A stretch of 64,000 bases of DNA, taken from NCBI GenBank assembly GCA_963971535.1, contig OZ020589.1, positions 77,659,328 through 77,723,327 on the forward strand, in the 5' to 3' direction. Of the stretch, positions 7,608 through 55,003 are shown one piece after another. The notes below the pieces were generated by a model that saw only the letters and a program-made list of their open reading frames with translations, was not told where the DNA came from and ran no database searches. A program made the position numbers and the translations under genes. The DNA comes from Notolepis coatsorum (Eukaryota; Chordata; Actinopteri; Aulopiformes; Paralepididae). Each line of letters opens with the position of its first letter. Positions within the stretch are counted from its first letter, which is position 1.

Positions 7608-8971
7608 TCATTCTTTCTTCTCTGATGACATATCTGATGAGATGATATTTTCTATAATGGCATGTCTACATCTATGTTGACACATTGGGTTCCTAGCAAT
7701 CACAATGGTCCCCTGGTTGCCCTCATAAACAACAGTCTCCATATATACACAATGTCCATCTTTTTTTTTAAATGGTGTTGACAGAACGCCACTCATCTTC
7801 AAAAACACTATCTTCGGTATAGAGGATACATTTCAATTACCTACTACATTTTGAGCAATATATTCATAATCTTATCTCCATCACTCCGAGCAGTTGTTCT
7901 AGATAAACACATTTTGCATTGTCATAGCTAGAAACATATACTCAGCTTCACAGGCTGATAGTATCACTGTGGGCTTTAAGCCTTAAACCTTTACTGTCTA
8001 TTCTGAAACACTGCTGTCCGTCTGCTGCACCTCTGGGATAACGAAAGACATATTTTTGATGTAGTTCAATGCTTCTCTGTGGGGTCAGCAAAAATACTGT
8101 GACACTCTTACTCACTACAAAACATAGGTCAGGGCGAGTACAGGTTGTCTAACCAAATGAAGCTACCCACAGTTTTTCTATACATCTCTTACTTTAGTCA
8201 AAACATCTCAGGATCTTTTCCACATATCTCTTCTGGGATATTTTACACAATTTTCAGACTGTTCGAAGTCTATACCTATAAAATGGTTTAACCTCCTGTT
8301 TTTTTTTCTTGTTGTCTGGTGCGATGATCAAATCCTCCACTTCTGTATTTAAACATTGTAAATCACCCACCTCTGTACTTAAACATGGAATTAAACATAA
8401 GATTCATTTCAGTATTTCAAACATGGTAACTCATCCACTTCTGTACTTAAACATGGTCTCTAGTGAGACATTCAAACCTGGATTCTACTCCTCCTTCAGC
8501 ATTTAAGCAATTTGTCACCCTTCTTCATTATTTAAACATGGGGTACCCTCCTTCAGCATTTAAGCAATCTTCTACTAACCATACTTTGTATTTGCCGTGG
8601 CCTTCAATACCCTCCTGGATTGAATACACCCATTTCCCTCCCACTGTCTGTCTGCCCTCTGGTAACTTGGTTGAATACACCCATTTCCCTCCCACTGTCT
8701 GTCTGCCCTCTTCGGGGGACAATGTGGCCTCTTTAAAGGTCGGGTTTACCCCACTGACTACCCTGTAGTAGTACTCAACAGGGGTAGGTGTATTGTCCTC
8801 CTCGTCACTCCCTTTCCTGGCATAGTCTGTCAGATATTTTGGGGGTTTGTGTTCCCTTGAGGGATACCTCCCACTGCTTGGGGCACTTGACGTCACCCTC
8901 GGGTGCTCCTCGTCATCGCCCTCTGGGGGTTGCTGACTGTCTGTCTGTCTGCACGACTGTACTAAGTACAC
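7608..8971 (-). pseudogene. Copia-1 integrase tail, RT and RNase H remnants
   Basis: From 8971 to about 8580 the frame continues the integrase tail (SGRYPSREHKPPKYLTDYA) and the entry to the RT domain. It contains a 51-bp in-phase tandem duplication (8621-8721) that repeats PEGRQTVGGKWVYS. The RT fingers and palm are then missing: Copia-2 14245-14640 corresponds to only about 250 bp of repetitive filler here. Scraps of the RT end (around 8210-8290), the connection (8060-8130) and RNase H (7608-7808, TVVYEGNQGTIVIARNP) are still alignable to Copia-2 but lie in different frames with stops. No RT active-site motif survives. Confidence 0.88.
8310..8575 (-). repeat. Degenerate short repeats replacing the Copia-1 RT core
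   Basis: Plus-strand motifs such as CTTCTGTA.TTAAACATGG and TTCAGCATTTAAGCAAT recur at about 35-70 bp intervals (for example 8339, 8369, 8437, 8498, 8534, 8552). The block sits where about 390 bp of RT coding sequence is present in Copia-2. It looks like a minisatellite-like expansion after deletion. Confidence 0.7.
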
Positions 8972-10685
8972 TGGGTTGATGTGTCTCTGTTTCTACACAC
9001 CTTACTCTGGAGTCCAGCTCTGGCTCCTCTGTCTGTGTCTCGCTCTCACATGTTGCCTTTGTGACAGACTTGACTAGCATGTGTTTCTGCACTCTCCCGT
9101 TACCGGGATGATACACTAGGAAAGCAGGGCTTCCTTTGTCGTGTCCTACGAAAAATCCTTTTACACCCTTGGACTTGGGTTTTCCCCTGTCCTGCAGGTA
9201 CGCATAACACACTGATCCAAAATGGTGCATTCTGGCTAGATTACACTTCTTTCCTGTTAGTGCTGTATACGGGGTGGTGCCCAAGTGCTTATTAAAGCTC
9301 CTGTTTCTGGTGTAAGCGGCTTCTTGCACTGCATAATGCCATAGGCTCTTAGGTAAGTTACTATCTGTTAGCTTACTCTTAGCCATTTTGAAAAGGGTAT
9401 GCCATTCCCTCTCTGCCACCCCGTTCTGGTGTGGGGGATATGGACGTGACGTCTCGTGTCTTATCTTATACTTTCTCAACAGTGATTGGAACTCTCTGTT
9501 TGTGAACTCGGTTTCGTGGTCGGACCTCAAGCATCCTACGTTACCATAAGGGGCTATGTCTGCCAGGAATTTCTCCGTGGCCTGGGGTATGTCACTCTTT
9601 GCTTTAAGAAAGTAGACAAACACTGCCCCTGTGCACACTTCTGTAAAAGACTGTACATATCTAAAGCCTTCTATGGACTCGTTGCTTACTGGGCCGGCTA
9701 GGTCCGTGTCAACTAATGCAAGTGGTATCCTTACTCTGTCTGTGGGATTTCTGTATCTCAATTGAGTAAACTTCCCTGTCTTGCACACTGCACAATTTTC
9801 GTCAGGTCTACGCTTTTCTCCTTCAATGTGCATGCCTTCTGACACTACTTGCAGTTTCAGTAAATCCTCGTAATTACAATGACCCATAATCTTGTGCCAT
9901 GTCTGAATATCGTGACTGGCCGTCCCGCTACACATATCATTATTATCATTACACTTGTCGTTGTCATTACACTCCGTTTTCAGATAATATATTCTCTGGT
10001 AAATTTTTATGTCAAACCGGGTACCGTCAAGTTCTACAAGAAAATGTTTACCTTTATCGAAGAATACCTTGGCACCGCTTGCAGTAGCAGCTATTACAGA
10101 GAATAGTCCTTGTGGGAACGATGGTACGTAGAGTGCGTTCTTTAACGTCACCGTACGCCGGCGCCCCTTACTGTCCGTGAGGCATACCTGTGCGTCTCCC
10201 CTCTCTTGCGCCAATTCGTAGGTGCGTCTCCCGTCCACCAGCTCCATGCTGTGCCTCTCCGGGTGGAAAGTGTCGTCAAAGTTCTTGAACCGACTCCTGT
10301 CGTTGATGATATGGGACGACGCACCTGTGTCCACGATCAGTCCCCTTCTCTGGCCCCGCTGCAGCTGGGCCGGTCCGGCGGTGCCCGCCGTCCGTGCCCC
10401 GAAAGCGCAGTCTTCTTGTCCCGTTATTCTCCGGGCGTCGTCTCGATCCGTCTCACGTCGACCGCCGCCGTCATCGTGTCCGCTGTCGTCATCCTGTCCA
10501 CAGCCGTCTTCTTGTCCGTAGCCGCCATTTTGTCCGTGGCCTCCGTCTCGTCCATGGCCGCTGTCTCGTCCGTAGCCGCCATTTTGTCTGTAGCCGCCAT
10601 TTTGACCGTGGCCTCCGTCTCGTCCATGGCCGTCATCTTGCCCATGCGCGTATCGCACGCTCTGGTCGTGTTTCTTCATGCACAC
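8913..10685 (-). pseudogene. pol: Copia-1 protease and integrase, longest intact frame
   Basis: A 590-codon open stretch. It starts inside the second zinc knuckle, followed by about 60 residues of low-complexity Gly/Asp/His/Gln repeats (GHGRDGGHGQNGGYG-like). The aspartic protease motif DTGASSH lies near residue 120 (about 10320). The integrase zinc domain is HKIMGH…CAVC near residues 262-300. The integrase core aspartates are in VDTDLAGP and RSDHETEF and the glutamate in NGVAEREWH; the usual SDNGTEF has become SDHETEF. The frame ends at 8913 because a (TGTC) run near 8935-8955 carries one extra tetranucleotide compared with Copia-2. It normally cleaves Gag-Pol and joins cDNA to the chromosome. 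Protease residues look intact, but the polyprotein is broken on both sides. Confidence 0.92.
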
Positions 10686-11432
10686 TCTGTCTGTGTGCCC
10701 TGTGGATTTGCAGAAGCTACACCAGACAGTCTTTGTGCAGTCGCTTCTCCGATGGCCTTTCTCTCCGCATCGCCAAAACGCCAGTTCCGTTGTGGTCCTG
10801 GTTCTCTCCCTTGGCGTCGCTCTCTCCCGCCTCCGCGGCGGCTGGGTGGGTATCTTCTGAGGCCTCGAAGTTCCTTAACTTAGCCTTGAACTGTCCGAAC
10901 GTCATGTCCGTTGAATTGTGTGTTACCAGGCGTGTGAACGGTTTGTCCAGCTCCGGTAGTCCTCTCATCATCATCGCCATCATTAGCCCATCGCTTGGTG
11001 CTTTTCCGGCACTCCTCAATGGCGTCGTGATCTGCTCCGCTCTGTTGACGTATTCGGTCACAGTCTCTGTGGTCCTCTTCCTCAGGCCCGTTAGTGCTAT
11101 GTAGAGGGCCACGACTCTGGGTCTTCCTCGCCCGATGTAATGCTCTCTCAACACCTCCAGGCTTTCTCGGCCTCGGTCTTTAGTGTCGCGGAATATCAGC
11201 CCCAGGCTGGTGTCGTCGAGCAGCGGCGCTAACTCACAGTACAGTACGCGTTTGTGTTACGCTGATCATCCAGGGCTTGCTCTTCCGCCGTCAGTTCTCC
11301 CGTGGGGGCTGCCAGGATCGTCTCCTTCAGTCCCGCACCGTGCATGCAGCATAGCATGCGCTCTTCCAAGAGCTCATAGTCCTCTGCTTTTCCATTGAAT
11401 GTCGGCCATTTGCCCCTTTTCTTGTTTTCCAT
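10686..11432 (-). pseudogene. gag: Copia-1 gag, frameshifted
   Basis: Gag coats the RNA in the cytoplasmic particle. The start ATG at 11432 begins a lysine-rich peptide containing KWPTFNGKAEDYELLEER. The frame fails near 11240, where TACTG is duplicated (5-bp insertion) relative to Copia-2, giving an early stop at about 11229. A second frame carries the core (LREHYIGRGRP…TVTEYVNRAEQI…RGLPELDKPF) from about 11154 to 10717, then shifts again just before the nucleic-acid-binding region. Two zinc knuckles follow. The first has lost its first cysteine (Phe instead, then WRCGEKGH); the second (CSFCKSTGH…C) is intact. Copia elements normally make one Gag-Pol polyprotein; this copy cannot. Confidence 0.85.
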
Positions 11433-13954: not shown

Positions 13955-14702
13955 ATAAATAAATAAATAAATGTTGTCTGTACATTTTTACATCTGTCAA
14001 TTTCTGAGCATCCTCTTGGTAGTCTAGTTTTTGATTGCATGGTGTTTCCCTTGTTCTACATTCTTGCATGTCAAAACGTATCAGGATCTTTTCCACATAT
14101 CTCTTCTGGGATATTTTTACACAACTGGCAGACTGTTCGAAGTCCATGCCTAGAAAATGCTTTAACCTGCCTAGGTCTTTCATTTTGAATCTGGTGTAGA
14201 GCATACTTTTCACCTGCTCTAGGTTTCTAGTGTTGTCTGCTGCGATGATCAAATCATCCACCCAAATCACAATTATCACTTTTCCTGACTCTTTTGACTC
14301 CCTTGAGTAAACACAGGGGTCTACTGGGTTCTGTATGAAGTGATCTTCAATTAGACACGTATGAAGCATCTCGTTCCAATTTCGCCCAGACTGTTTCAGG
14401 CCGTAAATGGATTTTTCTAGCTTACACACTAGCTTCTCTCCTTTCTTCTCGTAACCTTCAGGTTGTTCCATATATATCTCCCTATCGATGGGTGCGTGCA
14501 GGTAGGCTGTCTTCACATCCATCTGGTGTAAAATCAAACTGTCCTCAGCTGCTTTCTGCATCACTACCCGTACACTGGTCAGATTGGCTGTAGGTGAGAA
14601 TGTCTCACCGTAGTCTATACCTTCCCTCTGACTGTAACCTTTAGCTACAAACCTGGCCTTGTACTTGTCGTGGCCTTCAATACCCTCCTTGATTGAGTAC
14701 AC
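13932..14702 (-). pseudogene. pol: Copia-2 reverse transcriptase (RVT_2)
   Basis: 256 codons of Copia-type RT: KARFVAKGYSQREGIDYGETFSPT near the start, the first catalytic Asp in HQMDVKTAYLHA, the IYGLKQSGRNWNE motif, and the catalytic pair in WVDDLIIAA (usual form YVDD). It copies element RNA into cDNA in the cytoplasm, primed by half tRNA-iMet. The frame is lost upstream by a 1-base deletion and downstream by an (AAAT)n expansion at about 13952-13972, which diverts the end of the domain to HLFIYLFDNMYSP. Confidence 0.93.
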
Positions 14703-16228
14703 CCATTTCCTCCCACTGTCTGTCTACCCTCTGGTAACTTGGTTAGAGTAAAGGTGTGGTTGTCCTCTAGTGACCTCATCTCCTCATCCATTGCTCTCTC
14801 CCATTTTCTTGACTCAGGGGACACCATGGCCTCTTTAAAGGTCTGAGGTACTCCACTCACTACTCTGTAGCAGTAATCAATGCTCGTAAGTGTACTGTCA
14901 TCCTCGTCACTTTCTCTCTTGGCATAGTCTTTCAGATACTTTGGGGGTTTGTGTTCCCGTGAGGGATACCTCCCACTGCATGAGGCACGTGACATCACCC
15001 TTGGGTGCTTCCCGTCATCATCCTCTGGGGGTTGTTGACTGTCTGTCTGCCCGTCTGTGCTCAGTACACTAGGCTGAGGTGTCTCTCTTTCTTCACACCT
15101 TACTCTGGAGTACAGCTCTTGCTCCTCTGTCTGTGTCTCGTTCTCACATGTTGTCTTTGTGACAAATTTGACTAGCCTGTGTTTTTGCACTTTCCCTTTA
15201 CCGGGGTAGTAGACTAGAAAAGCGGGGCTTCCTTTGTCGTGCCCTACAAAGAGTCCTTTTTCACACCTGGACTCAAGCTTTCCTCTGTCCTGCTGGTAAG
15301 CATAACACACCGACACAAATTTGTGCATTCTGGCTAGATTACACTTCTTTCCTGTCAGTGCTGTATACGGGGTGGTGCCCGTGTGCTTATTAAAACACCT
15401 GTTCCTGGTGTAAGCGGCTTCTTGTACCTCATAATGCCATAGACTCTTAGGTAAGTTACCATCTATTAGCTTACACCTAGCCATTTCGAAAAGAGTGTGT
15501 CCTTCCCTCTCTGCTATCCCGTTCTGGTGCGGGGAGTAAGGACATGACGTCTCCTGTCTTATCTTGTTCCTTCTCAACAGTGATTGGAACTCTCTATTTG
15601 TGAACTCGGTTCCGTTGTCGGACCTCAAGCATCTTATGTTGCCATAAGGGGCTACATCTGCAAGGAATTTCTCCGTGGCATGGAATGTGTCACTCTTTGC
15701 TTTGAGAAAGTAAACAAACACTGCCCCTGTACACACATCTGTAAAATACTGTACATATTTACAGCCACCTATGGACTCATTTCTTACTGGACCGGCTAGA
15801 TCTGTGTTAACTAGCTCAAGTGGTATCTTTACTTTTTCCGTGGGACCTCTGTTCCTCGATTGAGTGAACTTCCCCTTTATACACACTTCACATTCCTTGT
15901 TAGGTCTATGCTTTTCACCGTTAATGTGCATGCCTACTGTCACCGCTTGCAGCTTCAGTATATCCTCGTAATTACAATGACCCATGATCTCATGCCATGT
16001 CTGGATATCATGACTGACAGTCACATTACACATATCATTATCATTACACTCTGTTTGTAGATAATACATTCTCTTGTACACCTCTATGTTAAATCGTGTA
16101 CCGTTAGGCTCTACAAGAACATCTTTACCTTCATTGAAGAACACTTTGGCACCGTTTGCAGTAGCAGATTTTACAGAGAATAGTTCTTGTGGGAATGAGG
16201 GTATGTAGAGAGCGTTCTTTAACGTCAC
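14645..16228 (-). pseudogene. pol: Copia-2 integrase region of pol
   Basis: A 527-codon open frame beginning MTLKNALYIPSFPQELFSV, which in Copia-1 lies about 90 residues after the protease DTGA. Those residues are absent here, so the protease is deleted. The integrase zinc-binding domain HEIMGH…CEVC lies near residues 79-117. Core residues are in VNTDLAGP, RSDNGTEF and QNGIAEREGH, all canonical. The C-terminal part continues to the RT entry (RKWERAMDEEMRSLEDNHTF) and ends after a 1-base loss near 14715 (VGGNGCT instead of VGGKWVY). It would join element cDNA to the chromosome; a functional enzyme would need protease supplied from elsewhere. Confidence 0.93.
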
Positions 16229-16251
16229 TGTACACCGGCGCCCCTCACTGT

Positions 16252-17178
16252 TTATGACTGGGTGACGTACGTTGTCTGCGCCCCGAAGATGAAGTCCTCT
16301 CGTCCTGCTGCTCTCCGGGCATCGTCTCGACTCGCCTCACATCCACCGTTGCCGCCATCTTGTCCACAGCCGCCATCTTGTCCATGCGCGTACCGAGCGC
16401 TCTGGTCACATTTCTTTCTGCACACTTTGTCTGTGTGCCCTGTGCATTTACAGAAGCTACACCAAACAGTCTTTGTGCAGTTATCTTTCCGATGCCCTTT
16501 TTCTCCCCATCGCCAACACGCCAGCTCCGTCGGGGGTCTGGTCTTATCTCTCGGTGCCGCCCAGGCCTTCAGCACCCTCTCTCCCGCCTCCTCTGCGACT
16601 GGGTGTGTGTCTTCTGAGGCCTCAAAGTTCCGCAGCTTGGCCTTGAACTCCCCCAGCGACATGTCCGCTGAACCGTGTGTCACCAGCAGTGTGAACGGTT
16701 TGTACATCTCCGGTAGTCCTCTCATAACCATCACCATAATTAGTCCATCGCTCTGTGCTTCTCCTGCACTCTTAAGCGCCGAAATGATCTGTTTAGCCCT
16801 GATGACGTATTCGGTCACAGTCTCTGTGTGCGCTTTCTTCAGCGCGGTTAGTGTTATGTAGAGGGATACGATCCTGGGTCTACCCCTGCCGATATAGTGA
16901 TCTCTCAACACTTTCAGGCTCTCTCTGCCTTCCGTGTCGCGGAATAGCAGCCCCAAGCTTGTGTCGTCTAGCAGTGGTGCTAGCTCGCAGTATGCGTCGG
17001 CATTTTGCTTGATATCCTGGGTTTGCGCTTCCGCCGTTAGTTCTCTCGTGGGGGCCGTCAAGATCGTTGTCTTCAGTCCCACCCCGTGCATGCAGCACAA
17101 CATTCACTCTTCCCAGAGCTCATAGTCCTCTGCCCTTCCGTTGAACAAGGGCCACTTGCTCCTTCCTCTTGTCGCCAT
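16252..17178 (-). pseudogene. gag: Copia-2 gag, one nonsense codon
   Basis: The start ATG at 17178 encodes MATRGRSKWPLFNGRAEDYE. A TGA at 17106-17104 replaces the Arg codon seen in Copia-1 (consistent with CpG decay). The frame then stays open for 283 codons to a stop at 16252. The core (GLLFRDTEGRESLKVLRDHYIGRGRP, TVTEYVIRAKQI, RGLPEMYKPF) matches Copia-1. Of two zinc knuckles, the first has Trp in place of its second Cys (CWRWGEKGH….C); the second, CSFCKCTGHTDKVC, is complete. The frame runs straight into a deletion that removes the protease, so Gag ends with an unrelated TTYVTQS tail. Confidence 0.9.
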
Positions 17179-27520: not shown

Positions 27521-27922
27521 TCATTTAGCAGCCCATGATGCGTCTCTACGTTTCAGCCACAACCAGTGACTGCTCCGTTCTGCTGCAGTGGCAAGTTCTT
27601 TGATTGCCTTTCGTTGGGCCTGTCCTCTGATCCCTACTTCCTTCAGGAGCCTTGTGGTGGAATTGGCTACAAAGCCTCTGCAGCCCACCTCCACTGGCCA
27701 CACCTTCACGTTCCAGCCCCGCCCCTCTGCTTCAGCTGCTAAGTTGGCATATCGCAGCGTCTTCCGTTCAAATGCCTCATCGATGGCTTCCTCCCATGGG
27801 GTCGTCAGCTCAACGATGAAGACACGCCGGCAAGATTTGGACCAGAAGACCAGGTCTGGGCGCAGGTTGGTCGCTGCAATTTCAGATGGGAAGGTAAGCC
27901 TCTGGCTGAGGTCTACCCGCAT
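27521..27922 (-). pseudogene. RPD…ELT open frame, copy 1 (nuclease-like fragment)
   Basis: 133 codons with NLRPDLVFWSKSCRRVFIVE and then LTTPWEEAIDEAFERK near the start, a PVEVGCRGFVANST block in the middle and a KAIKELATAAE…WLW block at the end. The RPD followed about 15 residues later by E.T resembles the active site of PD-(D/E)XK nucleases. Proteins with this wording occur next to reverse transcriptases in animal genomes, and restriction-like endonuclease domains (RPD…E) end R2/NeSL-type LINEs. I therefore infer the C-terminus of such an element. No reverse transcriptase is attached, so it is a fragment, absent from the right arm. Function not demonstrated. Confidence 0.5.
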
Positions 27923-28503
27923 TTCCCAATCCCGGGCTGCGTTCAGTGGGCCTGAGTTCAGAGGTGACGGCTTGGTCCGCCGTTTCTCCCCTTCCCGGAT
28001 GAAGGTTGTTTTCCGTGGGAAGGTAGTTTGGGCTTGTTATTGTGTAACAATAATGCACAAAGTATATTCAAGAGAACATGCAAATTATTTATTAATTTCA
28101 GACTACTTGTCTGAAAATTTGTCCTGTTCCCTGATAATTTGACAGTCGAAGGAAATTCAAGATATTGTATGAGGTGTTTTTAATGGGGCGAATGAACTAT
28201 TTTTACTAGATGAGTCAATAGTCAGAAGGATCTGCGTGTAGGAGGATAATGCTAATTTGTCAAGGGTTGACATATAACAACCCCCATGACACCTCACTCC
28301 TTTGTAAGACAAACAGCTTGATGTTGTAATTACAGTGATTAGACTCGTGTGCCTGTTTCCATTTTATCAGGATGTATGGGGATACAAAATCTATATAATA
28401 ATAAGCTGTATATGTATACCAACTGTCATGCAAGAAATGCAACTCTAATGTGCTACACAAGAGTAAAACAGACATAACATTTCCAAACAGCATTGTTCTA
28501 AAC

Positions 28504-33150: not shown

Positions 33151-33552
33151 TCATTTAGCAGCCCATGATGCGTCTCTACGTTTCAGCCACAACCAGTGAC
33201 TCCTCTGTTCTGCTGCAGTGGCAAGTTCTTTGATTGCCTTTCGTTGGGCCTGTCCTCTGATCCCTACTTCCTTCAGGAGCCTTGTGGTGGAACTGGCTAC
33301 AAAGCCTCTGCAGCCCACCTCCACTGGCCACACCTTCACGTTCCAGCCCCGCCCCTCTGCTTCAGCTGCTAAGTTGGCATATCGCAGCCTCTTCCGTTCA
33401 AATGCCTCATCGATGGCTTCCTCCCATGGGGCCGTCAGCTCAACGATGAAGACACGCCGGCAAGATTTGGACCAGAGGACCAGGTCTGGGCGCAGGTTGG
33501 TCGCTGCAATTTCAGATGGGAAGGTAAGCCTCTGGCTGAGGTCTACCCGCAT
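33151..33552 (-). pseudogene. RPD…ELT open frame, copy 2 (nuclease-like fragment)
   Basis: Duplicate of the frame at 27521-27922 with six residue differences (for example VFWS to VLWS, ELTTPW to ELTAPW, VANST to VASST) and no stop or frameshift. Both copies stay open over 133 codons. That could mean selection or simply youth; with so few differences the two cannot be told apart by eye. Confidence 0.5.
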
Positions 33553-34882
33553 TTCCCAATCCCGGGCTGCGTTCAGTGGGCCTGAGTTCGGAGGTGACGG
33601 CTTGGTCCGCCGTTTCTCCCCTTCCCGGATGAAGGTTGTTTTCCGTGGGAAGGTAGTTTGGGCTTGTTATTGTGTAACAATAATGCACAAAGTATATTCA
33701 AGAGAACATGCAAATTATTTATTAATTTCAGACTACTTGTCTGAAAATTTGTCCTGTTCCCTGATAATTTGACAGTCGAAGGAAATTAAATATATTGTAT
33801 GAGGTGTTTTTAAAGGGGCGAATGAACTATTTTTACTAGATGAGTCAATAGTCAGAAGGATCTGCGTGTAGGAGGATAATGCTAATTTGTCAAGGGTTGA
33901 CATATAACAACCCCCATGACACCTCACTCCTTTGTAAGACAAACAGCTTGATGTTGTAATTACAGTGATTAGACTCGTGTGCCTGTTTCCATTTTATCAG
34001 GATGTATGGGGATACAAAATCTATATAATAATAAGCTGTATATGTATACCAACTGTCATGCAAGAAATGCAACTCTAATGTGCTACACAAGAGTAAAACA
34101 GACATAACATTTCCAAACAGCATTGTTCTAAACCAGGGGTAGGCAACCCTAGGCTCGCGTGCCTGCATAGGCACACAGGGGCATTTTCATAGGCACAGGG
34201 GGCAGCATAAAAAAAAAAAAAAAAAAAAAAGGAATTTAATATTATAGTGAACTATTTTGCACTGTTGTCGCATTTATCTTGTTGAAATCCTCCCACAGGT
34301 TCTTTTTACTACCACATATTTAATTGAGACCCTTTATTTGTTTATTATTTCAATTTAGCTGGAAATACATTGCTACATCATTCAGTAATATTTGCAGAGC
34401 CTTATAACAAAAACATTATTACGGTCACCATTGTGACCAGTGGGATTAATCAACATTTTATTATTTATTTGTCTATTTCATTGAACATTGCACAAGGACT
34501 TGTTAGTCTACAATGCCCTCAGAGGGGAGACAGGTTACTATATTCATTTGATTAATGGCTCTGTACCAAAGGGAATGAATGAAAAAATGTTGTTATCCTG
34601 CTTCCTACAAGTGACTTTTTATTACTTTTATTTTCATGAGTATATTATTATTATTTTATGAATTGAGAAGTTTTCCTTCTGTTGTAGTGGTTCTTTGCTT
34701 ATAGAATTTTGTGTTTGCTTTTGGCTTATTTAAGTTTCTGGTAAAAATTTGTTTGCAACATGCTACATTAACGAGTCCTTACTCTGGAGGTCAAAGTTCA
34801 CTAGCATTCCCAAGCTCACCTCTATGATGTCACTTCCTGCCCACATGGTATATAGCTCCCATTTTTACAAGCTATCACTGCT

Positions 34883-34938
34883 AGCCTATTACACTGAAGA
34901 TGGAACACCTGTTCCGAAACATGTCTGTACTATAGGCT
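34883..34938 (+). ncRNA. Type I hammerhead ribozyme motif, unit 1
   Basis: Core CTGAAGA (the CUGANGA box) at 34894-34900, helix II GGAAC/GTTCC with a 4-base loop, then GAAA at 34916-34919, a minimal helix III (C-G closed by AT), and TC giving predicted cleavage after 34925. Helix I pairs TACA with TGTA and AGCCTAT with ATAGGCT, separated by a 2-base bulge. One extra U lies between the core and helix II, unlike the minimal consensus. Very short helix III is typical of ribozymes in Penelope-like elements and retrozymes, which are reported to act as dimers. Confidence 0.62.
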
Positions 34939-35963
34939 GCCATTAAAAAAAAAAATTTTAAATCTGAGAGTGCTGGTCCGGCCTTCGGCTTTATTCTGCT
35001 TAAATGTTTGGGATTTCAGCACCCAGTGTCATATACTGAGAGCGCGGTCTAACTTGACTTTTGATACATAGCTACTTTGGTAGTTTAGAGACCTGCAGCT
35101 CCAGAGTTTACAGTCCACCCTGTCCCTAGTGGATTTACATCAGCTTTCGTAGCTACAACGATGGAGTCAAGAGACATCCTACTCCATGGCGTGACCCTTA
35201 TTAACGATTGGCAGGATGCCATCATCCTGAGGGGCCTGCTTTTTGCCAAGGCATGACATCGAGCGGCATAAGAGATGCGGGAGACGAGGAGACGAACGGG
35301 ACTATCTACACACTTGGTGCCTCCTGCACTTCTGCAGGCCTACCAGGCAGCCCAGAGACCGACCTAAGAAGGAGATGTATCCGCTGTGCTCCCTCCGTAG
35401 ATGATGTTTCCGGACGGCCACCATGGAGGAGTAAGCAAGACAGGATCATCGGTCCCGGAGATATACACATCTACTGACATTTCAAGTGTTTATTTGAGTG
35501 ATTAGCACCACTATGTCCTTGCTTAAGAGTGTACCGTATCTCTCTATTTTCTCCTAATGCAATCTTATTGTTTAAAGGACTTGTTAGTCTACAATGCCCT
35601 CAGAGGGGAGACAGGTTACTATATTCATTTGATTAATGGCTCTGTACCAAAGGGAATGAATGAAAAAATGTTGTTATCCTGCTTCCTACAAGTGACTTTT
35701 TATTACTTTTATTTTCATGAGTATATTATTATTATTTTATGAATTGAGAAGTTTTCCTTCTGTTGTAGTGGTTCTTTGCTTATAGAATTTTGTGTTTGCT
35801 TTTGGCTTATTTAAGTTTCTGGTAAAAATTTGTTTGCAACATGCTACATTAACGAGTCCTTACTCTGGAGGTCAAAGTTCACTAGCATTCCCAAGCTCAC
35901 CTCTATGATGTCACTTCCTGCCCACATGGTATATAGCTCCCATTTTTACAAGCTATCACTGCT

Positions 35964-36019
35964 AGCCTATTACACTGAAGATGGAACACCTGTTCCGAAA
36001 CATGTCTGTACTATAGGCT
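35964..36019 (+). ncRNA. Hammerhead motif, unit 2
   Basis: Identical to the unit 1 motif, 1,081 bp downstream. Confidence 0.62.
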
Positions 36020-37044
36020 GCCATTAAAAACAATTTTTTTAAATCTGAGAGTGCTGGTCCGGCCTTCGGCTTTATTCTGCTTAAATGTTTGGGATTTCAG
36101 CACCCAGTGTCATATACTGAGAGCGCGGTCTAACTTGACTTTTGATACATAGCTACTTTGGTAGTTTAGAGACCTGCAGCTCCAGAGTTTACAGTCCACC
36201 CTGTCCCTAGTGGATTTACATCAGCTTTCGTAGCTACAACGATGGAGTCAAGAGACATCCTACTCCATGGCGTGACCCTTATTAACGATTGGCAGGATGC
36301 CATCATCCTGAGGGGCCTGCTTTTTGCCAAGGCATGACATCGAGCGGCATAAGAGATGCGGGAGACGAGGAGACGAACGGGACTATCTACACACTTGGTG
36401 CCTCCTGCACTTCTGCAGGCCTACCAGGCAGCCCAGAGACCGACCTAAGAAGGAGATGTATCCGCTGTGCTCCCTCCGTAGATGATGTTTCCGGACGGCC
36501 ACCATGGAGGAGTAAGCAAGACAGGATCATCGGTCCCGGAGATATACACATCTACTGACATTTCAAGTGTTTATTTGAGTGATTAGCACCACTATGTCCT
36601 TGCTTAAGAGTGTACCGTATCTCTCTATTTTCTCCTAATGCAATCTTATTGTTTAAAGGACTTGTTAGTCTACAATGCCCTCAGAGGGGAGACAGGTTAC
36701 TATATTCATTTGATTAATGGCTCTGTACCAAAGGGAATGAATGAAAAAATGTTGTTATCCTGCTTCCTACAAGTGACTTTTTATTACTTTTATTTTCATG
36801 AGTATATTATTATTATTTTATGAATTGAGAAGTTTTCCTTCTGTTGTAGTGGTTCTTTGCTTATAGAATTTTGTGTTTGCTTTTGGCTTATTTAAGTTTC
36901 TGGTAAAAATTTGTTTGCAACATGCTACATTAACGAGTCCTTACTCTGGAGGTCAAAGTTCACTAGCATTCCCAAGCTCACCTCTATGATGTCACTTCCT
37001 GCCCACATGGTATATAGCTCCCATTTTTACAAGCTATCACTGCT

Positions 37045-37100
37045 AGCCTATTACACTGAAGATGGAACACCTGTTCCGAAACATGTCTGTACTATAGGCT
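37045..37100 (+). ncRNA. Hammerhead motif, unit 3
   Basis: Identical to the unit 1 motif, two unit lengths downstream. Confidence 0.62.
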
Positions 37101-38125
37101 GCCATTAAAAACAATTTTTTTAAATCTGAGAGTGCTGGTCCGGCCTTCGGCTTTATTCTGCTTAAATGTTTGGGATTTCAGCACCCAGTGTCATATACTG
37201 AGAGCGCGGTCTAACTTGACTTTTGATACATAGCTACTTTGGTAGTTTAGAGACCTGCAGCTCCAGAGTTTACAGTCCACCCTGTCCCTAGTGGATTTAC
37301 ATCAGCTTTCGTAGCTACAACGATGGAGTCAAGAGACATCCTACTCCATGGCGTGACCCTTATTAACGATTGGCAGGATGCCATCATCCTGAGGGGCCTG
37401 CTTTTTGCCAAGGCATGACATCGAGCGGCATAAGAGATGCGGGAGACGAGGAGACGAACGGGACTATCTACACACTTGGTGCCTCCTGCACTTCTGCAGG
37501 CCTACCAGGCAGCCCAGAGACCGACCTAAGAAGGAGATGTATCCGCTGTGCTCCCTCCGTAGATGATGTTTCCGGACGGCCACCATGGAGGAGTAAGCAA
37601 GACAGGATCATCGGTCCCGGAGATATACACATCTACTGACATTTCAAGTGTTTATTTGAGTGATTAGCACCACTATGTCCTTGCTTAAGAGTGTGCCGTA
37701 TCTCTCTATTTTCTCCTAATGCAATCTTATTGTTTAAAGGACTTGTTAGTCTACAATGCCCTCAGAGGGGAGACAGGTTACTATATTCATTTGATTAATG
37801 GCTCTGTACCAAAGGGAATGAATGAAAAAATGTTGTTATCCTGCTTCCTACAAGTGACTTTTTATTACTTTTATTTTCATGAGTATATTATTATTATTTT
37901 ATGAATTGAGAAGTTTTCCTTCTGTTGTAGTGGTTCTTTGCTTATAGAATTTTGTGTTTGCTTTTGGCTTATTTAAGTTTCTGGTAAAAATTTGTTTGCA
38001 ACATGCTACATTAACGAGTCCTTACTCTGGAGGTCAAAGTTCACTAGCATTCCCAAGCTCACCTCTATGATGTCACTTCCTGCCCACATGGTATATAGCT
38101 CCCATTTTTACAAGCTATCACTGCT

Positions 38126-38181
38126 AGCCTATTACACTGAAGATGGAACACCTGTTCCGAAACATGTCTGTACTATAGGCT
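38126..38181 (+). ncRNA. Hammerhead motif, unit 4
   Basis: Identical to the unit 1 motif, three unit lengths downstream. Confidence 0.62.
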
Positions 38182-39206
38182 GCCATTAAAAACAATTTTT
38201 TTAAATCTGAGAGTGCTGGTCCGGCCTTCGGCTTTATTCTGCTTAAATGTTTGGGATTTCAGCACCCAGTGTCATATACTGAGAGCGCGGTCTAACTTGA
38301 CTTTTGATACATAGCTACTTTGGTAGTTTAGAGACCTGCAGCTCCAGAGTTTACAGTCCACCCTGTCCCTAGTGGATTTACATCAGCTTTCGTAGCTACA
38401 ACGATGGAGTCAAGAGACATCCTACTCCATGGCGTGACCCTTATTAACGATTGGCAGGATGCCATCATCCTGAGGGGCCTGCTTTTTGCCAAGGCATGAC
38501 ATCGAGCGGCATAAGAGATGCGGGAGACGAGGAGACGAACGGGACTATCTACACACTTGGTGCCTCCTGCACTTCTGCAGGCCTACCAGGCAGCCCAGAG
38601 ACCGACCTAAGAAGGAGATGTATCCGCTGTGCTCCCTCCGTAGATGATGTTTCCGGACGGCCACCATGGAGGAGTAAGCAAGACAGGATCATCGGTCCCG
38701 GAGATATACACATCTACTGACATTTCAAGTGTTTATTTGAGTGATTAGCACCACTATGTCCTTGCTTAAGAGTGTACCGTATCTCTCTATTTTCTCCTAA
38801 TGCAATCTTATTGTTTAAAGGACTTGTTAGTCTACAATGCCCTCAGAGGGGAGACAGGTTACTATATTCATTTGATTAATGGCTCTGTACCAAAGGGAAT
38901 GAATGAAAAAATGTTGTTATCCTGCTTCCTACAAGTGACTTTTTATTACTTTTATTTTCATGAGTATATTATTATTATTTTATGAATTGAGAAGTTTTCC
39001 TTCTGTTGTAGTGGTTCTTTGCTTATAGAATTTTGTGTTTGCTTTTGGCTTATTTAAGTTTCTGGTAAAAATTTGTTTGCAACATGCTACATTAACGAGT
39101 CCTTACTCTGGAGGTCAAAGTTCACTAGCATTCCCAAGCTCACCTCTATGATGTCACTTCCTGCCCACATGGTATATAGCTCCCATTTTTACAAGCTATC
39201 ACTGCT

Positions 39207-39262
39207 AGCCTATTACACTGAAGATGGAACACCTGTTCCGAAACATGTCTGTACTATAGGCT
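39207..39262 (+). ncRNA. Hammerhead motif, unit 5
   Basis: Identical to the unit 1 motif, four unit lengths downstream. Confidence 0.62.
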
Positions 39263-40287
39263 GCCATTAAAAACAATTTTTTTAAATCTGAGAGTGCTGG
39301 TCCGGCCTTCGGCTTTATTCTGCTTAAATGTTTGGGATTTCAGCACCCAGTGTCATATACTGAGAGCGCGGTCTAACTTGACTTTTGATACATAGCTACT
39401 TTGGTAGTTTAGAGACCTGCAGCTCCAGAGTTTACAGTCCACCCTGTCCCTAGTGGATTTACATCAGCTTTCGTAGCTACAACGATGGAGTCAAGAGACA
39501 TCCTACTCCATGGCGTGACCCTTATTAACGATTGGCAGGATGCCATCATCCTGAGGGGCCTGCTTTTTGCCAAGGCATGACATCGAGCGGCATAAGAGAT
39601 GCGGGAGACGAGGAGACGAACGGGACTATCTACACACTTGGTGCCTCCTGCACTTCTGCAGGCCTACCAGGCAGCCCAGAGACCGACCTAAGAAGGAGAT
39701 GTATCCGCTGTGCTCCCTCCGTAGATGATGTTTCCGGACGGCCACCATGGAGGAGTAAGCAAGACAGGATCATCGGTCCCGGAGATATACACATCTACTG
39801 ACATTTCAAGTGTTTATTTGAGTGATTAGCACCACTATGTCCTTGCTTAAGAGTGTACCGTATCTCTCTATTTTCTCCTAATGCAATCTTATTGTTTAAA
39901 GGACTTGTTAGTCTACAATGCCCTCAGAGGGGAGACAGGTTACTATATTCATTTGATTAATGGCTCTGTACCAAAGGGAATGAATGAAAAAATGTTGTTA
40001 TCCTGCTTCCTACAAGTGACTTTTTATTACTTTTATTTTCATGAGTATATTATTATTATTTTATGAATTGAGAAGTTTTCCTTCTGTTGTAGTGGTTCTT
40101 TGCTTATAGAATTTTGTGTTTGCTTTTGGCTTATTTAAGTTTCTGGTAAAAATTTGTTTGCAACATGCTACATTAACGAGTCCTTACTCTGGAGGTCAAA
40201 GTTCACTAGCATTCCCAAGCTCACCTCTATGATGTCACTTCCTGCCCACATGGTATATAGCTCCCATTTTTACAAGCTATCACTGCT

Positions 40288-40343
40288 AGCCTATTACACT
40301 GAAGATGGAACACCTGTTCCGAAACATGTCTGTACTATAGGCT
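40288..40343 (+). ncRNA. Hammerhead motif, partial unit 6
   Basis: Identical motif in the truncated last unit, which ends 61 bp after it. Cleavage at all six sites would release five full 1,081-nt monomers. Confidence 0.62.
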
Positions 40344-40526
40344 GCCATTAAAAACAATTTTTTTTTAAATCTGAGAGTGCTGGTCCGGCCTTCGGCTTTA
40401 TTCTACATTGCACATGTTAAAAGCCATTTTTTTACTCTAAATGTGAGTATTACCAAGTCAACTTGTGTTCTTAAAACAATGACAATAAACATAGTTTTAT
40501 TAGGTTGAAATAATGTGGTTGTGTAC

Positions 40527-40967
40527 TGTTGTGGAAAATGTGTACACGGGGGTGGAGGTAGGAAAGGGGTTAGTCTTGACTAGTTTAATATAGGTCAACT
40601 AGCAGGGCTCAAAGACACTAGGGCGACAGTCTGGCTGATGTTCTTAAAACAGCCTCAAGATAGGCAGATGGACATTTCAGTACATCATATCGTGTGCTCT
40701 AATCTTGTGTCTTTTCTCTCTTTCATACATACACAGCACACACACACAGACACAGCACACACACACAGACACACAGACACACACATACACAGCACACACA
40801 CACAGACACAGCACAGACACACACAGTCACACACACACACACACAGACACACACAGTCGCACAGACATACACACCGACACACACACACACACACATTCCC
40901 TGTGACACAATACACACATACAATACACACACGTCTGTACACAGACGCACACACACACAGACACACA

Positions 40968-41001
<34 letters not shown>

Positions 41002-41437
41002 TCTCACTCTCTCTTCGATGTTCTTAATGTTTTACATCATATCGTGTGTGTACATCATATCTTGTTTATCTCTCTTCGATGTTCTTAATGTTTTTATCTA
41101 AATCTATGTTCTTCTTAATGTCTTTATCTCTCTTCATGTTCTTAATGTTTTTATCTCTCTCCGATGTTAAATCTACGTATCATCTTAATGTACGTCATGT
41201 CAGATCTGACATGATATGATACGTCATCATATCTGTCATGGGGGGGCAGGACTGAGAGGGGATTTAGGGGACAAGCAGAGGGATTGGGAGGTAGAGTGTT
41301 TTTTGTTCAAGCTGTGGTGATCCTCTGCTCGATCCATAGCTTTTGCTGTTAAGAACTTCTTTTCCTAAATAAATTACCTACTTGTTAAAATTGGAACTAT
41401 CGTCTCCTGCTGTGTTAAACAACCATCAGCCACAACA
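40527..41437 (+). repeat. ERV 5' LTR
   Basis: 911 bp, TGTTGTGG … CCACAACA. It contains a CA-rich block (40731-41000) with embedded CAGACAC and CAGTCAC variants, and AATAAA at 41368-41373, the probable polyadenylation signal. Relative to the 3' LTR it has a roughly 60-bp extra segment after about 41030 (a partial repeat of a CATCATATC block) and a shorter CA block. Confidence 0.95.
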
Positions 41438-54125: not shown

Positions 54126-54588
54126 TGTTGTGGAAAATGTGTACACGGGGGTGGAGGTAGGAAAGGGGTTAGTCTTGACTAGTTTAATATAGGTCAACTA
54201 GCAGGGCTCAAAGACACTAGGGCGACAGTCTGGCTGATGTTCTTAAAACAGCCTCAAGATAGGCAGATGGACATTTCAGTACATCATATCGTGTGCTCTA
54301 ATCTTGTGTCTTTTCTCTCTTTCATACATACACAGCACACACACACAGACACAGCACACACACACAGACACACAGACACACACATACACAGCACACACAC
54401 ACAGACACAGCACACACACACAGACACACAGACACACACAGTCACACAGACACACACACACACAGACACACACAGTCGCACAGACATACACACCGACACA
54501 CACACACACACACACATTCCCTGTGACACAATACACACATACAATACACACACGTCTGTACACAGACGCACACACACACAGACACACA

Positions 54589-54629
<41 letters not shown>

Positions 54630-55003
54630 CTCACTCTCTCTTCGATGTTCTTAATGTTTTTATCTAAATCTATGTTCTTCTTAATGTATTTATCTCTCTT
54701 CATGTTCTTAATGTTTTTATCTCTCTCCGATGTTAAATCTACGTATCATCTTAATGTACGTCATGTCAGATCTGACATGATATGATACGTCATCATATCT
54801 GTCATGGGGGGGCAGGACTGAGAGGGGATTTAGGGGACAAGCAGAGGGATTGGGAGGTAGAGTGTTTTTTGTTCAAGCTGTGGTGATCCTCTGCTCGATC
54901 CATAGCTTTTGCTGTTAAGAACTTCTTTTCCTAAATAAATTACCTACTTGTTAAAATTGGAACTATCGTCTCCTGCTGTGTTAAACAACCATCAGCCACA
55001 ACA
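54126..55003 (+). repeat. ERV 3' LTR
   Basis: 878 bp, otherwise nearly identical to the 5' LTR. Outside the CA block and the 60-bp indel I see one substitution (ATGTCTTTATC versus ATGTATTTATC near 54688). AATAAA lies at 54934-54939. Confidence 0.95.

Follow-up and report, generated by a model that had tools for sequence, protein, structure and literature searches.

Penelope-like elements (PLEs) and the non-coding retrozymes of animals are the closest described systems to the array that we analyse here, in which a hammerhead-like motif recurs every 1,081 bp in a stretch of 64,000 nucleotides of the Notolepis coatsorum genome (contig OZ020589.1, positions 77,659,328 to 77,723,327, forward strand; this whole stretch is called the window below). 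In Poseidon of Anolis carolinensis (PAc), an autonomous PLE, the open reading frame (ORF) begins at stem II, the ribozyme cut lies 26 nt past the start codon, the protein acts on both target strands, which it cuts and extends, and reverse transcription uses two adjacent internal starts, the main one being 111-118 nt into the ORF; the spacing of the two equals the genomic "tail" (PMC11167929; this and the other papers are cited for the portions on which we draw). Penelope of Adineta vaga has inverted, head-to-head pseudo long terminal repeats (pLTRs) with the tail on one inverted end and target-site duplications (TSDs) of 8-10 bp; its pLTR carries TATA and TCACT 20 bp apart, and foreign sequence was mobilised in trans (PMC3846280). 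For animal non-LTR retrozymes a circular RNA template and PLE helpers have been proposed (PMC7229834, PMC7761336); their RNAs measure ~170-400 nt, circular RNAs of 150 to over 1000 nt being also mentioned, and the small ones are described as highly self-paired (PMC7229834). Published accounts such as these already describe PLEs with hammerheads, PLEs in tandem and inverted pLTRs of which one bears the tail, and they already contain the idea that PLEs move retrozymes; what the hammerhead does for a PLE has been termed a mystery (PMC7761336).

According to our analysis, the array is likely to be one insertion of a young, non-coding and non-autonomous PLE derivative of Poseidon-type architecture, retrozyme-like and built of a 1,081-nt unit, which would move by the mechanism proposed below. 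A preceding sequence-only reading had reported six identical motifs at exact steps of 1,081 bp, and we re-found them, each 56 nt long. The spacing and the number of motifs that it gave hold, while the array extends further than it described, from 34495 to 40404; it had also missed that the array came in as one insertion, that its ends are of PLE type, and that the genome has many more such insertions. The insertion and its parts are as follows.

34485..34494, no strand: left TSD ACATTGCACA, 10 bp
34495..40404, + strand: whole insertion, five full 1,081-bp units and a 502-nt 3' partial (5.46 units)
34498..35578, + strand: unit 1, used for reference numbering (position 1 = 34498)
35579..36659, + strand: unit 2
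36660..37740, + strand: unit 3, with one private change at position 1036
37741..38821, + strand: unit 4
38822..39902, + strand: unit 5
39903..40404, + strand: 3' partial unit
40405..40414, no strand: right TSD ACATTGCACA, 10 bp
34883..34938, + strand: hammerhead motif 1, by descriptor and fold, predicted cut after 34925
35964..36019, + strand: hammerhead motif 2, by descriptor and sequence identity
37045..37100, + strand: hammerhead motif 3, by descriptor and sequence identity
38126..38181, + strand: hammerhead motif 4, by descriptor and sequence identity
39207..39262, + strand: hammerhead motif 5, by descriptor and sequence identity
40288..40343, + strand: hammerhead motif 6, by descriptor and sequence identity

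Units 1 and 2 differ at 4 sites, all within an A/T tract, and outside this tract (438-469) the units of the window show a single base difference.

The unit is a young dispersed family that has been recently mobile. A search of the 3.42 Gb genome, in which the 40 best-scored of 2,483 candidate places were compared, gave at least 155 matches to the unit, mostly at 97-100% identity (lowest listed, 93%); this choice of places biases the sample to young, long copies. The window and 39 other loci were compared, and they count as 39 because L037 and L038, on the small contigs C483 and C309, are mirror copies of one head-to-head insertion and probably haplotype duplicates; counts of ends and arms leave out L038, the first piece of L020 and an extra piece of L029. 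The outer 3' ends fall into two narrow classes: A, at unit positions 474-512 and mostly 501-506, ~75 nt past the predicted cut, and B, at 562-574 and mostly 565-569, ~138 nt past it. The array of the window ends at A (aligned to unit position ~500). Single-orientation insertions make up 21 of the 39 loci (11 with A, 9 with B, 1 unscored owing to Ns), and the other 18 are head-to-head, two of them unscorable with one end lost. Every head-to-head insertion with both outer ends, 16 of 16, has one A and one B, an outcome with a probability of 1.1e-4 if 16 A and 16 B ends were paired at random. Flanks match over at least 10 nt at 32/39 loci, including 17 of the 18 head-to-head ones, as against 12 of 569 mismatched flank pairs. 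The arms measure 153-5,907 nt, 40 of the 57 being longer than one unit, and 55 cross the predicted cut site; the two that do not are the arms of L015 and L040 with a missing outer end. The inner 5' ends, 57 in all, lie scattered along the unit (Kolmogorov-Smirnov p 0.19) and do not pile up at the cut, with 3 of them within 20 nt where 2.2 are expected.

Within the unit, the parts that recall a PLE are gathered around the hammerhead and are given here for the first copy.

34849..34879, + strand: promoter-like TATATA (34849) and TCACT (34875), 20 bp apart, within the repeated unit; putative promoter
34900..34935, + strand: relic ORF start, ATG lying over the core and helix II, stop after 11 codons
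34964..35000, + strand: from motif CTGAGAGTGC to 3'-end site A (unit ~503), putative reverse-transcription start A
35001..35063, + strand: "tail" between end sites A and B, with a second motif CTGAGAGCGC at 35036; site B (unit ~566) at ~35063

The predicted cut follows at a distance of 26 nt, counted from the A of this ATG. Overlap of hammerhead and start codon, two 3' ends with a tail, head-to-head copies and TSDs, all hallmarks of a pLTR, are found together here, and so are the features of a retrozyme, that is, a non-coding tandem unit which bears a hammerhead and is retro-inserted. Going round the unit, the longest frame measures 90 aa, and the unit holds no ORF with a telomerase-like reverse transcriptase (RT) and a GIY-YIG endonuclease, so that it is not an autonomous PLE. 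The sequence CTGAGAG[TC]GC stands 36 nt before end A and 27 nt before end B. A duplication of the start-site region within the tail is suggestive only: the local alignment is equalled by 48 of 2000 shuffles and is outscored by another window pair of the unit, and the PAc template shows a clearer repeat at its start sites (6/5000 shuffles). An RNA polymerase III promoter was considered and rejected, as a tRNA search of 34400-36800 found none and no exact B box was present (consensus patterns from general knowledge).

From these data it would be logical to suggest the following course of events, in which promoter, cleavage, circle and enzyme are deduced from sequence. RNA polymerase II would initiate at the pLTR-like promoter that immediately precedes the hammerhead, and its transcripts would extend over several units. 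The hammerheads, probably paired through the palindromic ACAUGU of helix III, would cut out 1,081-nt monomers, and these would be ligated into circles, which are probably the template. A PLE protein supplied in trans would bind the stretch past the ribozyme and cut the target with a stagger of 10-20 bp, and reverse transcription would be primed at internal start A or B, as the ends and TSDs indicate; where both target strands prime, one would use A and the other B, in keeping with the 16 scorable loci. Synthesis would pass the ribozyme site, often for more than one round of the template, and stop anywhere. Joining of two opposed cDNAs would give the head-to-head arrays that are observed, and joining of one cDNA to the other target end a plain tandem array.

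The anatomy of the motif supports its reading as a hammerhead well, its activity being predicted. Helix I is as the sequence-only reading had described it, AGCCTAT/ATAGGCT (7 bp) and TACA/TGTA (4 bp), with a 2-nt bulge in the 3' strand; helix II is GGAAC-ACCT-GTTCC, and GAAA is followed by CATG and the GTC site. The extra base which that reading had placed between core and helix II is real, a T between CTGAAGA and GGAAC, and it is there because the ATG start codon, whose T it is, overlaps core and helix II. The CUGANGA core, helix II, GAAA, an (N)UH site and a closed helix I, expected of a minimal type I hammerhead of PLE type, are thus all present. The minimum free energy fold of motif 1 has helices I and II as described, at -18.1 kcal/mol (z -2.69; 2 of 200 shuffles reach equal stability). 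A descriptor made of a 4-bp helix I, CTGANGA, an optional extra base, helix II, GAAA and TH matched six times on the + strand of the whole window and never on the - strand, nor on either strand of 200 dinucleotide shuffles. Among the copies, 98 of 104 listed motifs are identical, and an exact 32-mer of the motif had no match in viral contigs. Helix III, ACAUGU, is self-complementary (octamer duplex -6.0 kcal/mol); two strands folded together without constraint did not take up the hammerhead form. In amphibians, hammerheads with a weak helix III work better as dimers (PMC7229834, PMC6155905), and dimer action may also apply to those of PLEs (PMC7761336).

What served as template can be approached through variants within and between arrays. 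The comparison took in 37 loci and 144 pieces, leaving out L029, L031, L038 and pieces shorter than 60 nt; homopolymers, the terminal 15 nt at the ends of pieces, and positions 84-95, 160-177 and 436-471 were masked. Of the non-CpG variants that several loci share, 57 were carried by every covering unit and 8 by some of these units; of those private to a locus, 4 were in every covering unit and 51 in some (Fisher 2.7e-20); for CpG variants the corresponding counts were 10 and 4 shared, and 2 and 7 private. Since shared variants are mostly array-wide and private ones mostly unit-specific, insertions seem to pass through a one-unit bottleneck, to which L020 is the one clear exception; three of the eight shared variants found in a subset (at L014 and L040) look like alignment effects. 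Opposite arms of head-to-head insertions share locus-private variants at L022, L040, L034 (a CpG) and L028 (near an end), and at L016 and L026 they share variants that are not locus-private. Of 105 pieces over the cut, three have a difference within 10 nt, in each case one substitution, and none an indel. As 55 of 57 arms cross the cut, the template must have been continuous there, either a circle or an already homogeneous multimer, and between these two we lean, with reasonable assurance, to the circle. A cleaved linear monomer is rejected as template, because A and B lie past the cut and yet nearly all arms cross it. We propose, more tentatively and at somewhat under even chances, a fuller version, in which the 1,081-nt ribozyme-made circle would be the true template of a rolling-circle, target-primed reverse transcription, and A and B would form a duplicated loading element for one enzyme subunit per target strand, so that a doubly primed insertion would carry one A and one B.

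A number of observations weigh against this proposal, and several of them favour another template, the long linear multimeric transcript of an existing array, copied by the same PLE machinery with the ribozyme as a relic or end-trimmer. In vitro, ribozyme mutants of PAc showed no loss of insertion, the start site was alike on both strands, and the authors conclude that the main substrate is unprocessed RNA (PMC11167929). Arrays that are already homogeneous would also give homogeneous transcripts. The array at L020:1951-4068 is mixed: its full unit alone has a linked 500T>C and 3-nt deletion, which are found in every covering unit of L019, and this contradicts a strict one-unit template, perhaps through a template switch. 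The unit-specific changes 35A>G (L013, L020) and 23C>T (L010) recur at other loci and may be recurrent or inherited. The variant masks were, moreover, widened after inspection of first-pass data, in which narrower and uneven masks had given 57 shared non-CpG variants in all covering units and 26 in a subset, and 4 and 67 private ones. Folded as a circle, moreover, the unit does not pair with itself to an unusual degree (z -0.22, 30 shuffles), in contrast to the small retrozyme RNAs of animals (PMC7229834), and we rejected an unusual circle fold on this ground. A linear multimer would, however, pass on unit-specific changes, and these are seldom common to several loci, 51 of 55 private non-CpG variants being unit-specific and 57 of 65 shared ones standing in all covering units; we therefore regard the linear template as unlikely, though it is the most serious of the alternatives.

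Further points of the same kind concern the motif itself and the enzyme. The Rfam comparison, whose failure the sequence-only reading had named as one half of what would speak against a ribozyme, gave no hammerhead match: nothing in the window reached the gathering score, and neither the array nor motif 1 alone had a match at E<=10. Rfam models may not cover minimal PLE-type hammerheads, and they likewise miss a motif, hammerhead-like though unproven, that lies next to another PLE of this genome, so that the negative on the array says little. A covariation test is unusable because the family is too young, given the near-identity of its listed motifs, and a GIY-YIG search of the genome, among the best 150 of 297 candidates, found no autonomous partner sharing the unit. 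The missing Rfam match, the minimal helix III and the derivation of ribozyme activity from sequence and fold could all be taken to mean that the motif is a chance or decayed look-alike without ribozyme function, and that the PLE-derived repeat alone is real. We think this improbable in view of the six descriptor matches against none in the shuffles, of a start-codon register as in Poseidon and of the 98 identical copies, to which youth also contributes. That a single unit was inserted and then amplified and homogenised as satellite DNA, by unequal crossing over or gene conversion, would explain near-identical tandem units and, through conversion between arms, the likeness of opposite arms, but is hardly credible where 32 of 39 dispersed loci have matching flanks around the array, the same two 3' ends recur with scattered 5' ends, and 18 loci are head-to-head. 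Ordinary satellite DNA was rejected on the same flank duplications, fixed 3' ends and head-to-head arms.

The GIY-YIG search gave 13 matches, of which we read that at L048 as a host SLX1-like gene. One PLE family is present among them, counted without L060: nine of the 13 loci share a long RT-endonuclease frame, and two more have the same score. At L061 and L062 (G000:C10 and C3428) this other PLE has a 735-aa frame upstream of a 742-aa RT-GIY-YIG frame (GIY-YIG E 7.7e-7), with endonuclease domains ~7.6 kb apart on C3428. It was rejected as the direct partner for want of meaningful similarity to the unit (best blastn E 0.19 for L061 and 0.45 for L062; best tblastn E 0.083). The unproven hammerhead-like motif mentioned above is at L062:2478, and ARAGORN matches to tRNA-Asp and tRNA-Asn lie inside the repeat of this PLE.

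Elsewhere in the window, an endogenous retrovirus with long open frames between its long terminal repeats (LTRs) directly follows the array on the + strand (40527 to ~55000). Its LTR stretches 40527-40826 and 54126-54425 are 99% identical, and 41069-41368 and 54635-54934 100%; near-identical LTRs and open frames indicate a recent insertion. Two copia-like retrotransposon copies with integrase domains lie on the - strand (8913-10874 and 14645-16336), and a near-identical pair of open frames at 27521-28142 and 33151-33772, 5.63 kb apart; a Pfam scan of 33151-33666 on the - strand, from one of this pair, gave no match.

The helper of animal retrozymes is not established, and the present family ties a retrozyme-like element to the insertion marks of PLEs in one genome. 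Its dozens of young insertions are natural experiments, and they make it possible to test three claims: that a circle is the template, that each strand has its own start site, and what the ribozyme is for. If the circle with two start sites is true, the PLE hammerhead would have the role that it has lacked so far, and the PLE tail would be a further start site, reserved for the second strand.

Among the matches listed from open-licence literature, titles and opening abstracts describe no retrozyme of this size with PLE-type ends and no A/B rule. The link to PLEs and retrozymes drawn in the sequence-only reading has been strengthened by the start-codon register, as in PAc, and by the TSD-flanked retro-insertion of a dispersed family; its remark that the unit is longer than animal retrozymes agrees with the abstract of PMC7229834 and less so with the discussion there, which allows over 1000 nt. 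In the portions cited, animal non-LTR retrozymes resemble the unit in their non-coding tandem units, type I hammerheads and TSDs, and differ in being mostly RNAs of 170-400 nt with fuller hammerheads (PMC7229834, PMC7761336); according to the review, no motif indicates their helper, whereas the unit has PLE-type ends. The Adineta vaga Penelope families have an RT-endonuclease ORF, unlike the unit, and their authors preferred to explain inverted copies by self-priming on antisense RNA rather than by priming on both strands (PMC3846280); they share with it the head-to-head copies, the tail on one end, the TSDs and the same TATA/TCACT spacing. With the PAc template the unit aligns weakly, and it differs from PAc in its 1,081 nt without an ORF beyond 11 codons at the ATG, in a tail of ~63 nt instead of 30-40 nt, and in the pairing of A with B in head-to-head insertions, PAc in vitro having no strand difference (PMC11167929). 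As in PAc, however, the hammerhead spans the start codon (CTGAAG-ATG-GAAC) and its predicted cut lies inside the ORF, 26 nt past the start, two neighbouring internal 3' ends follow, here at ~+101 (A) and ~+164 (B) from the ATG, and a tail between the starts, use of both target strands and tandem copies complete the likeness.

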